NCBI GenBank assembly: GCA_963924555.1
Contig: OZ004593.1
Location: 682,001-746,000 of the forward strand
Source: Crambe crambe
Taxonomy: Eukaryota; Porifera; Demospongiae; Poecilosclerida; Crambeidae
Reading direction: 5' to 3'
DNA: 64,000 nucleotides
This document shows, piece by piece, positions 48,835-57,611 of this stretch. Numbering within the stretch: the stretch's first letter is position 1; every line of letters starts with the position of its first letter. A model generated the notes under the pieces. That model was given only the letters and a program-made list of their open reading frames with translations. It was not told the origin of the DNA and did no database searches. A program made the translations under genes and the position numbers.

Positions 48835-49530
48835 TCATAACCTCATGAGAAAGACACGTTTTATTTGGAGGTTATAAACTGTACCAACAACCAAACATTG
48901 TTTAGTCACTTCACGAATAGCATCTTGTAAGTCCAGGAGTACTTGAGGGTGGTGTTGCGGAGCGGGGAAGGAGATGTGGACTCCATTACTCTCTTGACTG
49001 GACTCCAAGACAGTGTCTTCATAGGGTCCCAGGAGGAATATACTAGTGTCACTTGTGGTGACCGACTGTTGCAGAACAACATCCTCACCTTTGGGATAAC
49101 AACATGAAAGGAGTTGATTATTATGCACTTGTGTTAAGTCTTTATATACCTGGCACAAGAGGGACAAAAGTGATGGCATACACCCATCCTTCATCCTATA
49201 GCATCAAGAAACCAACTTGGATGAAAGTGAAGTCATTACTAGTGAAACTCTAACTCACTTTTGAAGCAGTGTACCATGTCATCTGGTCTGGGTCTGCTGT
49301 ATCATTCTGAACCCTCCATGGAATGCTATTGTAAATGGCCTCTCTCCATTAATCTATTTGTCAATAACTTCAGTTCAGTTAGAGACTTCAGTATTTCTAT
49401 TTCATAATTTGATATTGTGTCTCCTATGCTCCCATCTGTAGAAACCTATGCTTGAAGGTGGACAGGATCCTCCCATCTGTCGTGGTCCAGCAAGTTCCCA
49501 TTGCTGGACGGAGGACACCAGTTGTATCAA
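48835..49530 (-). pseudogene. Alpha-L-fucosidase C-terminal relic, copy 2
   Basis: The same antisense relic as at 25760-26475. In this copy the segment GEDVVLQQSVTTSDTSIFLL with LGPYEDTVLESSQESNGVH is open where copy 1 has a stop, but other indels remain. It is interrupted on its left-hand (upstream) side by the transposon complex starting at 49551. Confidence 0.7.
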
Positions 49531-49552
49531 AAGTTGGGTGAACAGACTAGCG

Positions 49553-49561
49553 CCTAGGGAG
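49553..49561 (+). repeat. Element A target-site duplication, left (CCTAGGGAG)
   Basis: The 9 bp directly before the left inverted repeat, identical to 55780-55788. Nine bp is the usual length for Mutator-like elements. Confidence 0.9.
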
Positions 49562-49611
49562 GCGATTTTAAAATTTGGGCTCAGTTTAGGGGTCAAAGGT
49601 CGCATATTAAC
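49562..49611 (+). repeat. Element A left terminal inverted repeat, 50 bp
   Basis: Exact reverse complement of 55730-55779. The coding start lies only about 46 bp inside it, so the promoter probably overlaps the inverted repeat. Confidence 0.95.
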
Positions 49612-49657
49612 TCTTTCTGTCTCTAACAAAATTGGCGGTTTTGGCGCGCTGTTGAAA

Positions 49658-49922
49658 ATGAAGAGGCTTAGTCTCAGCCTAAAAAAGAAGTCCAAACGAT
49701 TGGATGGGCATAAAACTTTCAGAGAACCTGGGGTGTATCTTGATGGCTTGTCATATCCTTCAGGCATTATGAACTCAGGGAATAACTGCTATGCAAGTGC
49801 TGTCTTGCAATGTCTATTCAACCTTCCCGGGTTTGCACTCATTGCCAAGGAAATATGGAGGGTCCATCCAGACAACTGCAACAACACTTGTTCTAACATC
49901 AGTATGTATGGGTCATTTTAAA

Positions 49923-50012
<90 letters not shown>

Positions 50013-52416
50013 GCTAAATAAAATAAATTTGTGCACAGGTTCTATTTGTAGCCTTGGAGCAATCAAGTTAATGCTTGGAGATTATAAGTATGGAGTGAAG
50101 AGCCATTCCATCACAGCCCATCCACTGCTTGCTTCTCTGCCTGGTAAAATAGGCAAATTAAATTATAATACACTCACTCTAATATTAATTTTCTAGATAT
50201 ATCTACAGGACTGAAAATAGGCCACCAAAATGATGCCCATGAGTTCTATTTGGCACTTCTTGACAGCATTGAAAACAAATTGGATGAGACGTATGTTCAT
50301 ACACATACGTGTTATTCATCCAATATTTAATCTTCTTCCCTAGGGGTAAAGCTGTCATTAACTCTTCCCTTAACATGGATATACAGAGCCAACGTAGGTA
50401 TTTAGGCATATAATAACAGCAGTGATACTTTTGCAGTCCACAAAAAGGTTTATAGATAATGTATGCACTTTCAGTCTCATGTACACAATGTGGGTACAAG
50501 TTACAAGAAGGATGCATAATAAGAACACCATGTTTGGAATTGCAAGTGAGCAAAAATAAAGTGCATGTATGTGTTAGTTATGACTGTTATAACCTTCAAG
50601 AGCAATAACCCAGTCAACATTCAAGACCTGTTCTCTGAATGGCTGGATGGAGAAAGTTCTATTGGGTCATGTGGGAGGTATCAATCAATCACCTAATGAT
50701 GTGGCAGACTTAGCATTATTTTAATAAACAGGTGTCATTGTGAGGAAGTTCAGTTAGAAGCTAAACATGGATTTCTTATAACACCCAAGTTGCTTTGCAT
50801 TCATATCACTGAACTACATTCAGAGTATGTAAATTTTCCTTACTAAAATAATTCATTGTTTATTGTAATTACACAGCATCCACAAGAATTCTAATGTGCA
50901 GATTCAGGTTAGAATTAATTCGTATCTACCATCAATTATCATAACCATGAATTTCAGAATTATACTCTCAAAATCCCAAATCAAAAATGCCAGTACCACC
51001 TTGTAGGAGTTGTGGTTCATCAGGAGCTAACTAAACAACTAGGACATTATATCTCCTTTATCAGATCATTGAAGGACCCGACAAAATGGTTTTATGCTGA
51101 TGACAGCCATGTAAGATTATTATTTAAGTACTGGACAAGTTAAAATCAAACTATTCATACAAAATTAAATTTCGCAAAATACACATTTAAAGTTCATGCA
51201 TGCTATTTCTCCAGCTACTGATTGCAATGTGTGAACTTTAAGCAAAATTTAATTTTTGATTTTTAACTTGTACCCTTCACATAATTATGATTTTCTTTAC
51301 ACGGGATATCTCAGGTCATTTCTGTGAGTATTGCAACTATCCTTCAGCAGCATCCATTTATACTCTTTTACGAACTCCAAGATGGTAAATAGCTAGCTAA
51401 CTATCATCTTCCAACTATAACCCACAAAATTAATAGAGAAAATGCTGCCGCTACTTTCACTGTATTCCAGCAGTAGGCTTCTTGGTAAACAATGGCTGAC
51501 AGATGAGGTAAACATATTATGTGTACACAAGATATCCCAATGCAATTTGAAATGATGCTAGATCATTGAGACATACTTCAACCTGATAGCTGTGGAAGGA
51601 GAAAGAGTGAGTTGGACTAAATTTTTACCAGCAACAGTCTATACCAATGCTATAATAATAGGCAGGAAAGAAAGTCAAGGTTTTTAACGGGCGATTTCTT
51701 GACACATACATGAACCGTGGATTTTCATGCCTCCCATCACCTTATCGTTCAGTAAGATAATGAATAACAAAAGCCATGAATAAAAAATTCATACATATCT
51801 ACATAATAGAAAGACATTCTGCACCACGATCTACTCTTTTACATCATCAATGACAAAGAGATTCATTGGACACTCTTGGTACCAGCTGAATATTATATTG
51901 GTTCAGTCTTTTCATGTCTTACTCAAAGGTGTTGGATATGAAAAAGAAGGAGGCTACTTATTATGACTCATTGCTGAAGGAAAACTCAGTTTATATGCAA
52001 AAAACAGTGTAAGGATAATGTGACGAGCCTGCCTTAGGTACGAATGTACAAAATCCTGTAGCCATACACCCAGCAAGCTCTATCAGGCTCACCCTCAATG
52101 TGCTAACATGCACTTTGTAATAGATACTTTGTTCTATATAGGTTATATTTGAACCAGTTGGCTGCAGATTCTCCCTTTAATTGGAAAGAATGGACATACT
52201 TGAACCAGAAAGTAAAGACTACGTAATACTCCTTGCTGCTATTCTAAAAAATGCATGGTCATTAATCCACAGAAAATGCCCGCTCAGACCAATGGATCAG
52301 ACTGTGGGGTGTTCATATGTCAAGTAATTGCTTATTTTATCTCTCGATAATGCTATAATCTTTCACTTCAGTATGCAGTACACATTATGAGAGAAGACCC
52401 AATGGGATTTGCACAG

Positions 52417-52453
<37 letters not shown>

Positions 52454-55400
52454 CATTACGTATGTGTGTTATACGTACCTTACAGGAGGATATGGGCATC
52501 ATGAGGAAAATTATGTACGAAGAAGTGCTCAGTGGACACCTATTGTAAGTTAACCTACATAACATCATGCAGGACTGGTAGATATACCATTATAATAGAA
52601 GCAGAATGGAAAGGGAAAACCTCCTCAATCAAAGAGTGGGTGACCAAGAAGCTTATTATAATCCACAGTTATTCTTGGAGCCATTGCAAGCCAAATGCTT
52701 GCATAGGACACTTATCTCATCAACCCAAAGGAAGGGATTAAAAACGGAACTCGAAATCATTAATGTTAGCACTAGCACTTTGCCTATGCAACAACCACCA
52801 CCTGCGAAGAAACTAAAACTGGCCACACCACTTATTATTCAAGAACCTACTCCCCAACAGCTTTGCACTCTTTTAACATCCAGCAACACAACACTTCAGT
52901 CTCAGAATCATAATTCAATGCACCTATCACCACAAAAAAATGTATCCCCATCTCCACCTCCTTACAGTCCTATTACTAGTCCTCCTGATTCCCCTATCAC
53001 TTCATCCAACAATTCTGACACTTTTCCCCCCCAGTTTAATACAAATTTTGAGACACCTGCACTTGGCCATATCATAGCACATGATTATCTCCCACCATTG
53101 CTACACGAAATTCTCCCACCCGCTTACACTTATATCTTTCAGAAGATCAGTTTTAACCCAAGTAATTTGGCATGCTGTACTACTTTTTTGATTAATTCTC
53201 CCTCACAAGAGAGTGCAACAAAGTGGATTACTGATTTTCAAGAACAAAACAAGACAACCTATAGAATAACACGGGGTACTCAGTGTAAAGGTAAGAGGAT
53301 CATCTATAAGACAGTAAGGCATTGTCAACACAAGAGAAAAAAATCAAAAAGAACACTGAAAAGGCAGGAGAGTATCAGGAATAAAAAGACCGAGTGCAAT
53401 TCAAATTTCACTTTAAGAGTATACAATAGTGTCACCACTAAAAATAGCATTCACAAAAATCATCCCTGTGAAGTTATCCTTTCCTGGGATCATAACCATT
53501 CCCTCAATTGTGCCAAAGCACTCAGCTTTAGGCCTATCAGTCAAGACACAGTGGAAAAATTTCATTTATACTTTGATCAAGGTCACTCACCTTCTTCAGC
53601 TTTGCATTTACACCAGCTGAACCTTGCCATTAAGCATGATGAAGACCTGGAATACGCAAAAGCTGACCGGTCCCTCAATCCTCAGTACAGTGATGTTTTT
53701 TATCTGTATAAGAAGTGGCGGATAAAGAATCATGGCGAACAAAATGGGGAAGTTATGTTTGAAAAACTGGATGTAATGATCCAACAATACAACAAAGAAT
53801 TTGGATCTGAAGGGGGTAGGGCTTTTCTCCAAAAGTTTGAACGCAGCATTGACAGCAAATCCGAAGATATACCTGGGAAGAGTATTGACACTCCCCTTGT
53901 GCTGGCTGTGTGCACACCACTGATGGCAAGAGCTCACACCTTGTTACAACAGGCTGGTGAACTGGTGTATTGTGACAGTACATCTAGCTTAGACAGGTGC
54001 AGTTGTCCTACTTTTGTTTTTAGTACATCAAGCTCAGGAGGTGGGATACCGCTAGGTATTGTTGTTACTTCAGGAGAAAGTGAAACTACAATCATGGAGG
54101 CATTTGCATACCTTAGAGCTCTTCTTCCAAGCAATGCTTTCTTTGGCCGAGGCAGTAGAGGCCCACTAATGTTCATCACTGATGATTGCGAAGCGGAAAA
54201 GAATGCACTGAAAACTGTCTGGCCAGAATCGAGGCAGCTTCTCTGCATTTTTCACTACCTGCAGAGTTGGTGGAGATGGTTGTGGGATTCCACTCATGAT
54301 ATTCCCAATGAGAAAAGAAGACCGATAATGAATATCATACGGTCTCTGGTATATATAACCAGTGAGAAAGATTTGGGAAAAAGCTATGAGGATCTGACAA
54401 ATCCTGACATACCTAATAGCTTTGTAAATCAATACCCCAATCTTCAGAAGCATTTACAATCTTTTTGGAAGAGAAGATCTGAGTGGGCATTATCCCATAG
54501 GGTTTGGGATCTCACAAGAGGGAATCATACAAACAACTATGCCGAAGCAGGCATAAGAGTACTCAAAGAACTTATATTTGGAAGAGTCAAAGCATATAAT
54601 CTCATCCAAATGTACCAGTTCATAACAACAACAATGGATACTTACTATTCCAGTAGACTGTTGGATATCGCACATAGCAGATTCCGGCCAGGCCTTTCTC
54701 TTCGTTACAGAGAGCTCAACAAGCTACAGAATAATATTACTACTATCACCCATGCTAGAGATGGCATTTATGTAGTTCATGAACAAGTACAAATTAAAGG
54801 ATTGGAAGTTATGCTGGAATACCTAGTGGACATGGAACTGGGTGTGTGCTCTTGTTCAACTGGGTGTACAGGAGCAGCTTGTAAACACCAAGCTGCAACA
54901 GCTAAAAAGTTCCAACTTCCTAGCACAACTATAGCCCCAGTGCACTCCAAGGATTCAAGGCACCTTTTTGCAATAATTGCAAGAGGGGAACACAATACAA
55001 AAGGGATTGAATTCTATGCTGGCTTACAAGATGAAGACTCAAACAACATTTATACTCATAAAGGTAACCGTACTTCAAAGTTCTGTAAGGATAGTGTGGA
55101 AAAGTTCAGTGATTTAGAAGATACATTGGTGATCGATGTGACCGATAACACCATTAATGAATCTAAGGAGCAGGAAAATCAGATGCAGTCATACAGAAAA
55201 TCTTTAACAGATATAGTGGATGATCTCATGGAAAGATTGCTTGAGGGAGATCATAACTTGATCTCGGGAATCAACCACTTTATAAAGTCGTACAATAAAA
55301 TGGAAAAGTCCCCATCTCCCAACAGTACAATATCTTACGCGCTTCATAATTTTGGAAAGTCTGACAGTAAGTTAGTTAGCTAGCTACAGTTATGTCTGTT

Positions 55401-55665
55401 GTTGAAAATTTGTTGTCAAATAGGAACTGTGTGGTCAAGTGGCAGACATGGCTCCTATATTAGGACCAATGCTGCAGGAATTCAGAGGAGGAGGAAAGGT
55501 CTGTCAAAGGGAACTAAGATGGCACCACAGGGAAGACCAATGAAGTGGAAGCTACATAAAAACAGTATACCACCCAAAGCTAAGCGTCCCAAGCAACCCC
55601 ACAATCTAAGCCTGAAATTCAGAGACAGAAAAACTTGCCACAATTTACCTTATACTTCATCATAG
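49658..55665 (+). CDS. USP-Ulp1-MULE transposase polyprotein, about 1,520 residues
   Basis: Exons: 49658-49901, 50039-50143, 50197-50290, 50344-50393, 50475-50545, 50601-50677, 50732-50824, 50877-50907, 50958-51110, 51315-51384, 51437-51507, 51562-51606, 51671-51751, 51810-51878, 51929-52008, 52142-52211, 52273-52323, 52372-52416, 52486-52544, 52605-55366, 55424-55665. They total 4,563 nt with no stop. USP (C19) domain: Cys box GNNCYASAVLQCLFN (C44), GHQNDAHEF, zinc-binding CTQCGY and CHC, His box GHYISF (H285), WFYADD. Ulp1 (C48) domain: WLTDEIIETYFNL, HWTLL (H414), YYDSL (D431), QTNGSDCGVFIC (Q473, C479). A long Ser/Pro linker and a Cys/His finger (…WDHNH) follow. The MULE DDE core has YCDSTSS (D977), FITDDCEAE (D1046/1047) and TNNYAEAG (E1167). 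SWIM finger CSCSTGCTGAACKH. Basic tail. The protease-to-transposase join (52544/52605) is inferred from phase. Confidence 0.88.
49923..50012. repeat. (ATT)n microsatellite in element A
   Basis: About 90 bp of ATT units in the first intron of the transposon gene. Confidence 0.95.
52420..52451. repeat. (CA)n microsatellite in element A
   Basis: A CA run in the intron before the last Ulp1-coding exon. Confidence 0.95.
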
Positions 55666-55729
55666 ATACATCCATGCACAGTGCATTGTGATCTCGCTTT
55701 GTATATTGCGCTGCGCAGGCGCCTAGAGG

Positions 55730-55779
55730 GTTAATATGCGACCTTTGACCCCTAAACTGAGCCCAAATTTTAAAATCGC
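55730..55779 (-). repeat. Element A right terminal inverted repeat, 50 bp
   Basis: Exact reverse complement of 49562-49611. Confidence 0.95.
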
Positions 55780-55788
55780 CCTAGGGAG
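55780..55788 (+). repeat. Element A target-site duplication, right (CCTAGGGAG)
   Basis: Identical to 49553-49561. Confidence 0.9.
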
Positions 55789-57611
55789 AGGGCCTAGGGA
55801 GAGGAACGTTGCCAGTTGACCTTCGACCCCTATAATTGGGTTCTCTATTATGCGCATGCGTATATTAACGTCATAATAAACTTTGGACTCTGCTCTTCCT
55901 ACATAATAGTATAAAGTCCTACACAATCCCTGTTAGCTATCTCTACTAACTGACTAATGGCTCCATTTATCGCAGGAATCATATTCTTTTTGGGAGCAGC
56001 TTGACTACAGGACAATGAGGTAAGGATAACTAGACCTTTTGCTGTTGGGATTTGAAGCAATACCCCTCTTTCCACCTGATAGTTGCCTACCTTTTTTCCA
56101 CAGCTGCCCTGCTGTCTTAGGGAGAAGTGTGTCCTCCTCAGTGATCTCTGACCAGATGTTAGAAAGATATCAGTTCCTGCCTGAGGAGAAGTCCTTGGAC
56201 TGTCATCTTCTTGCAAAGCAGTAGAAGAGATTCCAATATAGAAAAAAGGTATGAAGTAGGTCAAGTATACTTGATCTGTTTTATAGGACACAGGATTGAT
56301 TTTTGTGCTAGATTAGCATTGAGGATTCAGTTGGAAGGTTGGCTTTACAAGCCTGAGGTTTCCTTTTCTCAAAAAAGATCTCAGAGGGTCTTGTTTTGGT
56401 ACTGGCAATACTGTGAGGGTGTTCTCTTTGGCTTTCAAGGCTGTATTGATCAGGGATTTGATGTCTTTGACTGTGTTGATATCATTAGCATGAGAGCTGT
56501 TGATGAATTCCTTCTCTGTAGGAGGTCAGTTTGAAAGGACTGCGTTCTGTCTTGTATAGGTTCTCCAGCAGCTCCGCCTGCTGGAGAACAACGGGTGATT
56601 TTTTAAAGTTCCCGTTACAAGTCTTGTGCAGGGTAGAATCTCCCAGCATACCTTAGCCCACTATGCCATCTTCCCTTCTATGTGGTCAATAGAATACTGC
56701 AAATACCCTTTGATGTGTGAAATCACCCCTATTCCTTCACTAATAGTTGGGGAGAACACTGCTAGTAGGTCCATGCCACTTACAAAAAAGAAAGAACAAA
56801 GTAAGCTCATTCTCAAAATAAGATTTGACTACTGTTGTCTGAATGAAGAAACTATAATTATTATAATAGTGTGCCTATACTTTAATGTATAGCATGTGGA
56901 AGATACCACTACAATTAATCGGCAGAATTTAACAACTTACTTTTCTCTTCATGCCCTTAAATCACTTTTATTTCATTGTTAAAATATTTTCGTATCATGT
57001 TAAATGACGAAAATTATTTACAAACGAAATGTGTAAGTAGTCAATTAGTAGATATGAAATTAATTCAACATGAAAAATGGAAAGGTATATAGAATATGTA
57101 CTTGGTCAAAAAATCATTATTTTTCATACCTTATATTCATGTACATACTTTTCATCAGACCTATATCAAATTTGTTTGCATCTGCTTGCTCTCCATAAGT
57201 TATCAGGGTTTCATGCAGCGAGGGGGAAAGGGGGAGATCCCCTCTGATTAAAATCCCCCCTTAACCAATTACTGAAATCGAATGTATCTTTATATAGCAC
57301 ATTTTTCTCACACAAGCACGTCCCCTGGTTATACTTGTATTAAAATGTATTATTCTGTCTAACCATCCAGGTGTTACTGAAGCAGTGGGCTCGAATCCAG
57401 AGTTCTTTCGTAACTACGCTTGGTTATGCCTCTGATGTTATAAAAGACAGCTACATCCTGGAATTGAATTTCTGTTCTAGCTATAATATGTACATATTGT
57501 AACTCATACACATTTAAATTTGGAGTGTTGATATACCTTCAATTTTGTACATAGCAATTGCAGCCATATATATATACTTTTGCATGTGTCACTAGAGCAT
57601 GCGCGATTACT
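55789..57611. other. Interior of element B, no recognised gene
   Basis: Frames up to about 130 codons exist on both strands around 55900-56530 but their composition is unremarkable and they do not resemble a transposase. 56880-57480 is A/T-rich. If element B ever encoded a protein, it cannot be identified by eye. Confidence 0.5.

Follow-up and report, generated by a model that had tools for sequence, protein, structure and literature searches.

A sponge Mutator-like transposon with a predicted gene that joins a USP and a Ulp1/SENP-type protease to its transposase

Why should a DNA transposon encode, in one reading frame with its transposase, two proteases of the kinds that act on ubiquitin and SUMO? 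The question is raised by a locus of the sponge Crambe crambe, in a 64,000-nucleotide stretch of contig OZ004593.1 (assembly GCA_963924555.1, positions 682,001 to 746,000; C16:682001-746000 in our contig numbering), referred to here as the window, which was compared with the genome (143 Mb, 119 contigs). A sequence-only reading of the window had proposed that a single 21-exon gene with consistent phases encodes a ubiquitin-specific protease (USP; C19), a Ulp1/SENP (C48) protease and the transposase of a Mutator-like element (MULE). Our model of this gene (49658..55665, forward strand) was built from coding scores first and, as models based on scores alone omitted or misplaced short exons, was then assembled by hand from three-frame exon translations. 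The result agrees with the proposal: in all 21 exons the phases agree, all introns are GT-AG, and the frame of 1525 amino acids (aa) is interrupted only by the stop at its end. Matches to the Peptidase_C19, Peptidase_C48 and MULE profiles all exceed the curated Pfam cut-offs within this one protein. Judging from the sequence, we consider it almost certain that this is one gene model, with dual proteases and a transposase, within one whole transposon.

The USP domain matches UCH (PF00443) at aa 36 to 325 (E = 2.5e-35) and is encoded by exons 1 to 10 (49763..51371, forward strand, like all features below unless stated). The Cys, His and Asp boxes claimed for it are present, with N39, C44 (at 49787), H285 (at 51045) and D303 (at 51099), as is a CxxC...CxxC zinc ribbon (C167, C170, C212 and C215). 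Among solved structures, Ubp8 is its best match (8.8e-13), with USP15 and USP36 nearly equal (7e-11). The second protease domain matches Peptidase_C48 (PF02902) at aa 348 to 516 (E = 1.4e-19), encoded by exons 11 to 19 (51490..52524); SENP1 and SENP2 are its best structural matches (8.5e-26), and the expected His-Asp-Gln-Cys set was located at H417 (51864), D434 (51965), Q476 (52285) and C482 (52303). Exon 20 (52599..55366) encodes a linker, a zinc-binding-like region recognized by eye (C765, C789, H821 and H823), the MULE core and a SWIM-type finger. The core matches PF10551 at aa 982 to 1078 (53974..54264; E = 1.2e-9), and the DDE character attributed to it fits a putative triad, found by eye, of D982 (at 53974), D1051 (at 54181) and E1172 (at 54544), the last lying after the core. 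The catalytic roles given to these USP, C48 and transposase residues are those expected of the families. For the proposed SWIM finger, a CxC...CxH pattern (C1273, C1275, C1284 and H1286; 54847..54888) was seen by eye alone and SWIM is absent from the Pfam matches of the window protein at E values up to 5, although SWIM exceeds the cut-off in two homologous proteins, P0089 and P0124. Exon 21 (55424..55665) supplies a C-terminal tail and the stop and is also matched in the related loci L039, L040, L041 and L042.

The gene lies within an element that is whole, as had been supposed. The transposon of 6218 bp (49562..55779) is bounded by terminal inverted repeats (TIRs) of 54 bp that are 98% complementary (left, 49561..49614; right, 55727..55780 on the reverse strand), the first base of the left TIR and the last of the right one being part of a perfect 9-bp target site duplication (TSD), CCTAGGGAG, found on both sides (49553..49561 and 55780..55788). 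At L030, a paralogous empty site, the 9-mer occurs once; the filled site has 13 additional right-hand bases that repeat it, AGGGCCTAGGGAG. Nine base pairs is the TSD length of the MULE/Mutator superfamily, and with PF10551 and its D, D and E residues, TIRs and 9-bp TSDs, the element is, by its sequence features, a Mutator-like DNA transposon. A retrotransposon was ruled out by the TIRs and TSD, and there is no reverse transcriptase among the Pfam matches of the window protein.

Five near-identical copies that share their terminal bases are present in the genome, at no fewer than three sites: the window copy, one on C10 and three on C9 (L011, L012 and L013). The other four diverge by 0.31 to 0.44% from the window copy, and those on C9 are 0 to 1 base apart. 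Since the window, C10 and L013 copies each have a perfect 9-bp TSD of their own (CCTAGGGAG, GTTGTGCTC and CCTAGTCTA, respectively), the element appears to have moved as a unit. No matching target duplication was found at the ends of L011 and L012. The C9 copies lie at 7.46 to 7.54 Mb in mixed orientation with exchanged flanks, and the swapped flanks of L011 and L012, without TSD, suggest a segmental duplication and inversion passing through the element. The sequence flanking the window insertion (49500-49561 and 55789-55850) is itself a dispersed repeat, also present at C16:812964, C1:5147974, C9:552750, C9:509250 and elsewhere.

Further copies in the same genome form a sister family, about 70% identical, and a more distant family 2. 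In the sister copies L039 (C5), L040 (C8) and L042 (C19), USP, C48 and transposase occur in the same order as in the window, with 62 to 74% aa identity in the domains. TIR-like sequence was found at each end of L039 and L040, which are flanked by 9-bp duplications with mismatches (7/9 and 8/9 bases alike, respectively), and only at the right end of L042. Family 2 (L043, L044 and L046, plus further C12 copies known from their coordinates alone) shares 35% identity with the window in the transposase and has USP and C48, including catalytic boxes, upstream of MULE in the same order. Its ends start with GCGA, like those of the window family, and its C10 copy has 93-bp TIRs (95.7%) and the TSD CCGGTCCGG; a short-motif search did not find the USP zinc ribbon in this family.

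Both proteases have been under purifying selection on par with the transposase core. In comparisons of the window with L039 and L040, the ratio of nonsynonymous to synonymous divergence (dN/dS) of the USP is 0.17 and 0.14, with dS near or past saturation; the proportions of nonsynonymous (pN) and synonymous (pS) differences are 0.15/0.18 and 0.77/0.78 for C48 and 0.15/0.17 and 0.76/0.76 for the transposase, and the linker between proteases and transposase is looser (pN of 0.35). These values count only codons matched by tblastn (266 of 330 for USP and 181 of 192 for C48 in L040; 191 and 150, respectively, in L039), so decayed parts fall outside them.

These families bear on the possibility, raised with the original proposal, that homologous elements hold only the transposase and that the protease exons are an unrelated host gene captured once. 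Instead, two transposase-related families hold both proteases upstream, which argues against such a single capture. Host-sequence capture by MULEs has been reported (PMC13317346, in the part considered, and titles of the Pack-MULE literature), and yet a USP and a SENP picked up recently as useless passengers would hardly have kept their order, junction and selection between TIR-bounded families whose transposases are 35% identical. This explanation is largely refuted and retains almost no credit with us; one recent capture is rejected on account of the order, junction and selection maintained across families, and from the sequences compared, the combination of USP, C48 and MULE is old.

Homologous predicted proteins from other assemblies have a similar composition. 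In one protein search, 5 of the 12 matches unite the C-terminal half of a USP with C48 and a transposase: P0089 (1490 aa), P0120 (1357 aa), P0122 (1326 aa), P0123 (1164 aa) and P0124 (1512 aa). All but P0089 have UCH, C48 and MULE among their Pfam matches, with MULE over the cut-off in P0120 only, and match the window transposase with BLASTP E values of 1e-86 to 1e-123. For P0089, Pfam gives C48, SWIM and a MULE match below the cut-off; the USP part was recognized by similarity to solved USPs (E = 4.6e-9 for the best) and to the window (1.2e-7). P0121 has USP and C48 in a sequence that ends within the transposase, and P0125 (Dendronephthya gigantea) has C48 and MULE. The Pfam scan covered 18 of the 130 fetched proteins (P0001 to P0130), with P0127 to P0130 left out. 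On viral contigs, two stretches fit a pattern, and neither codes for a P0089 relative.

The association can also be seen genome-wide, in matches called exon by exon at E values up to 0.1 (121 of 122 UCH, 54 of 54 MULE and 68 of 68 C48 matches entered the test). A UCH match lies within 9 kb upstream on the same strand for 14 of the 54 MULE matches, a C48 match for 10 and both for 9, and the downstream counterparts are 2 UCH and 2 C48 matches. Random placement gave on average 0.13 upstream UCH matches, and never more than 3, in 2,000 trials, versus the 14 observed, taking the highest match coordinate (at least 300,000) as the contig end and counting near-identical copies among the 14 pairs that are not independent. 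Exon-by-exon matching at this threshold overlooks copies, and L039, L040 and L042 fall outside the 14. Chance domain matches are excluded by the E values, conservation in relatives and the excess of same-strand upstream UCH matches over random placement. One further locus, L047 (C1:4326500-4335000), contains another MULE with an upstream USP, a C2H2-like finger below the cut-off and the start of a second USP at its right end; C48 is not among its Pfam matches.

Whether the window encodes one protein or two turns on the phase-2 intron between the protease and transposase exons (52545..52598; donor GTAAGT). The proposed junction of 52544 with 52605 was right in its donor and one of two choices in its acceptor, as exon 20 can begin at 52599 or, with an alternative acceptor ending at 52604, at 52605, both of which keep the frame. 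Two genes were considered because unspliced exon 19 runs immediately into a TAA and exon 20 contains an ATG at 52606, so that a protease gene could end at the former and a transposase gene begin at the latter; an ATG also lies near the junction of family 2 (L043), which is also of phase 2, with donor GTAAGC. However, any gene with a phase-2 GTAAGT donor in such a frame reads into TAA, only about 60 bp would separate the putative genes, and the five predicted proteins from elsewhere unite the parts. Further, the sister copies L039 and L042 keep the GTAAGT donor and the acceptor, and AGG replaces the ATG despite conserved neighboring codons. We regard two genes as improbable. Regulated retention of this intron may additionally yield the two proteases as a separate, free product.

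Related associations of proteases with transposons are known. Zisupton, an animal DNA transposon of another superfamily, carries an Ulp1 and is not known to have a USP. The published comparisons below draw on passages of three papers. Ulp1 or OTU proteases occur on Ginger1 transposases, for which a repair role was proposed (PMC2836005); these resemble the window protein in fusing transposase and protease but have an integrase-type transposase and a C-terminal protease, which is Ulp1 or OTU and never both in the table of that paper. According to the same source, Mutator elements of plants, hydra and lancelet also contain Ulp1. The hydra and lancelet MuDR elements, compared by description only, are likewise animal MULEs with Ulp1 and possibly belong to the same lineage, but the passage on them mentions no USP. 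It also lists a transposase_11-Peptidase C19 protein of Trichomonas, similar in fusing a USP-class domain to a DNA transposase and different in its protist host, its transposase family and the absence of Ulp1 from its entry. Helentron Helitrons carry VTD and OTU deubiquitinases (PMC9741609) and thus also have two deubiquitinase classes per transposon protein, but they are rolling-circle elements with other protease families. Kaonashi (KI/KIU) and other plant MULEs with Ulp1 (Arabidopsis, melon, rice and grapevine; PMC13317346 and PMC2836005), the function of which is given as unknown (PMC13317346), are likewise Mutator-type elements with a conserved C48. KIU is described as one gene among the three of elements that lack TIRs, with no USP in the passages on them, whereas the window element has TIRs and joins USP and C48 to the transposase rather than encoding Ulp1 as a separate gene.

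The sequence-only reading had named Ulp1 in Zisupton-type elements and as a passenger of some plant MULEs, the latter supported by both PMC13317346 and PMC2836005 in the parts considered, and had left out the hydra, lancelet and Trichomonas cases of the latter. As to its suggestion that a USP plus a Ulp1 on an animal MULE had not been described, Ulp1 in animal Mutator elements was already reported (PMC2836005, in the same portion), and among the matches listed in titles and abstract starts of the open-access literature, a coverage that excludes Repbase Reports, there is no description of USP and Ulp1 together on a MULE. The separate parts are therefore already known, and the combination looks new.

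As to what the proteases do, we hypothesize, with a probability of roughly 0.6 for the explanation as a whole, that the MULE transposase is translated as a single polypeptide together with N-terminal USP and SENP-type Ulp1 domains that act locally. Because both proteases would be tethered to the DNA-bound transposase, they would act at the element ends, where the USP would protect the transposase and its complex from turnover by removing their ubiquitin, and the SENP domain would take SUMO off the transposase itself or off host factors for silencing and repair that gather on it. Since hosts apply SUMO and ubiquitin signals successively to DNA-bound proteins, both proteases would be needed, and taking off one modifier alone would be insufficient. 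The targets themselves, ubiquitin on the transposase complex and SUMO on the complex or on host silencing or repair factors, are a guess to which we give slightly less than even weight.

Other uses of the same domains have to be weighed against this local protection. Two cysteine proteases at the N terminus of a long product might suggest a precursor that they cleave to free the transposase. C19 and C48 enzymes, however, cleave after ubiquitin-like folds, and Pfam finds no ubiquitin-like domain in the protein at E values up to 5 (cleavage sites were not searched for), which makes such processing very unlikely. A better, though still doubtful, candidate is that SENP and USP chiefly clear SUMO and ubiquitin from chromatin or silencing factors and thereby keep the element expressed. 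Ubp8, the best structural match of the USP part, is the histone H2B deubiquitinase of SAGA, although USP15 and USP36 match nearly as well. Similarly, the Ulp1-bearing VANC genes of Arabidopsis are associated with hypomethylation of related elements, although the function of Ulp1 in that context is stated as unknown in the part of the paper considered (PMC13317346). Finally, the proteases might target repair factors once the DNA has been cut, so as to steer how the site is repaired instead of protecting the transposase, as put forward for the Ulp1 and OTU of Ginger (PMC2836005, same portion); the sequence offers nothing that separates the two, and we find repair steering less probable than the clearing of silencing factors.

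Several observations weigh against local protection of a transposase by active, fused proteases. By sequence, the substrate may be ubiquitin, SUMO, NEDD8 or yet another modifier. Proteases are evidently dispensable for MULEs at large, and 40 of the 54 MULE matches have no upstream UCH at the threshold used, a number that overstates the lack because L039, L040 and L042 are counted there despite having USP exons. L041, with a transposase but hardly any protease sequence, shows that an element can lose its proteases. The sister copies are decayed, with stops in L040 and L042 and Gln in place of the C48 His in L040, and neither L039 nor L042 yielded the exon with the USP Cys. Of the five near-identical copies, the gene model is open in that of the window alone and broken in the other four: the C10 copy is two bases short in exon 1, and the C9 copies have a GC donor at exon 11 as well as altered lengths of exons 6, 20 and 21. 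The homologous predicted proteins all start inside the USP domain, and their underlying DNA may contain introns.

The protease pair is also found with an integrase-type repeat and perhaps with a DDE_3 transposase. Ten UCH matches of similar extent mark the former in this genome, examined at L045 (C18:4281500-4289500) and L050 (C8:3277500-3287300), which are 96 to 98% identical over most of their length; the further similar matches are at C1:7369889, C11:5074452, C10:4003498, C11:5322809, C9:6095375, C16:3941217, C14:2936003 and C5:8527489. Besides a USP, L045 has the integrase domains H2C2 and rve and boxes of a C48, among them PLQTNTSDCGVFIC, HSSHWILVV and YMDS; these boxes did not give a Pfam match to C48 itself, and the Pfam matches of its three forward frames include no reverse transcriptase. 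Its 5' side is a tandem array of ~155 bp, and the repeat looks Ginger-like. P0111 (1214 aa) has a weak N-terminal DDE_3 match (5.9e-4, below the cut-off) followed by two C48 regions and a USP; it may represent a further type of transposase that has these proteases in another order. Another C48-bearing repeat consists of repeated open frames, many of 238 to 278 aa, that match C48 profile positions 89 to 186 (C8:8970864, C8:9003561, C11:6167650, C10:285862 and others), with no MULE match nearby. Tentatively, and with odds that we place below even, the USP and SENP pair may be a recurrent transposon module that no fewer than three unrelated transposases (MULE, the Ginger-like one of L045 and the DDE_3/mariner-like one of P0111) have acquired, perhaps in independent events, because stripping both ubiquitin and SUMO at the transposase would overcome a restriction that eukaryotes in general place on transposition.

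Should the proteases prove active, the element would be a natural covalent test of which tags (ubiquitin, SUMO or both) restrain a DNA transposase, and the scattered reports of Ulp1, OTU, VTD and C19 in transposons would unite as one counter-defense strategy. It would also provide tethered deubiquitinase-SENP enzymes whose substrates could be searched for directly. If true, recurrence with transposases of unrelated types would make the pairing a rule and not a curiosity. As related elements retain the same protease-transposase arrangement, the window element suggests mobile DNA armed against the protein-tagging system of the cell.

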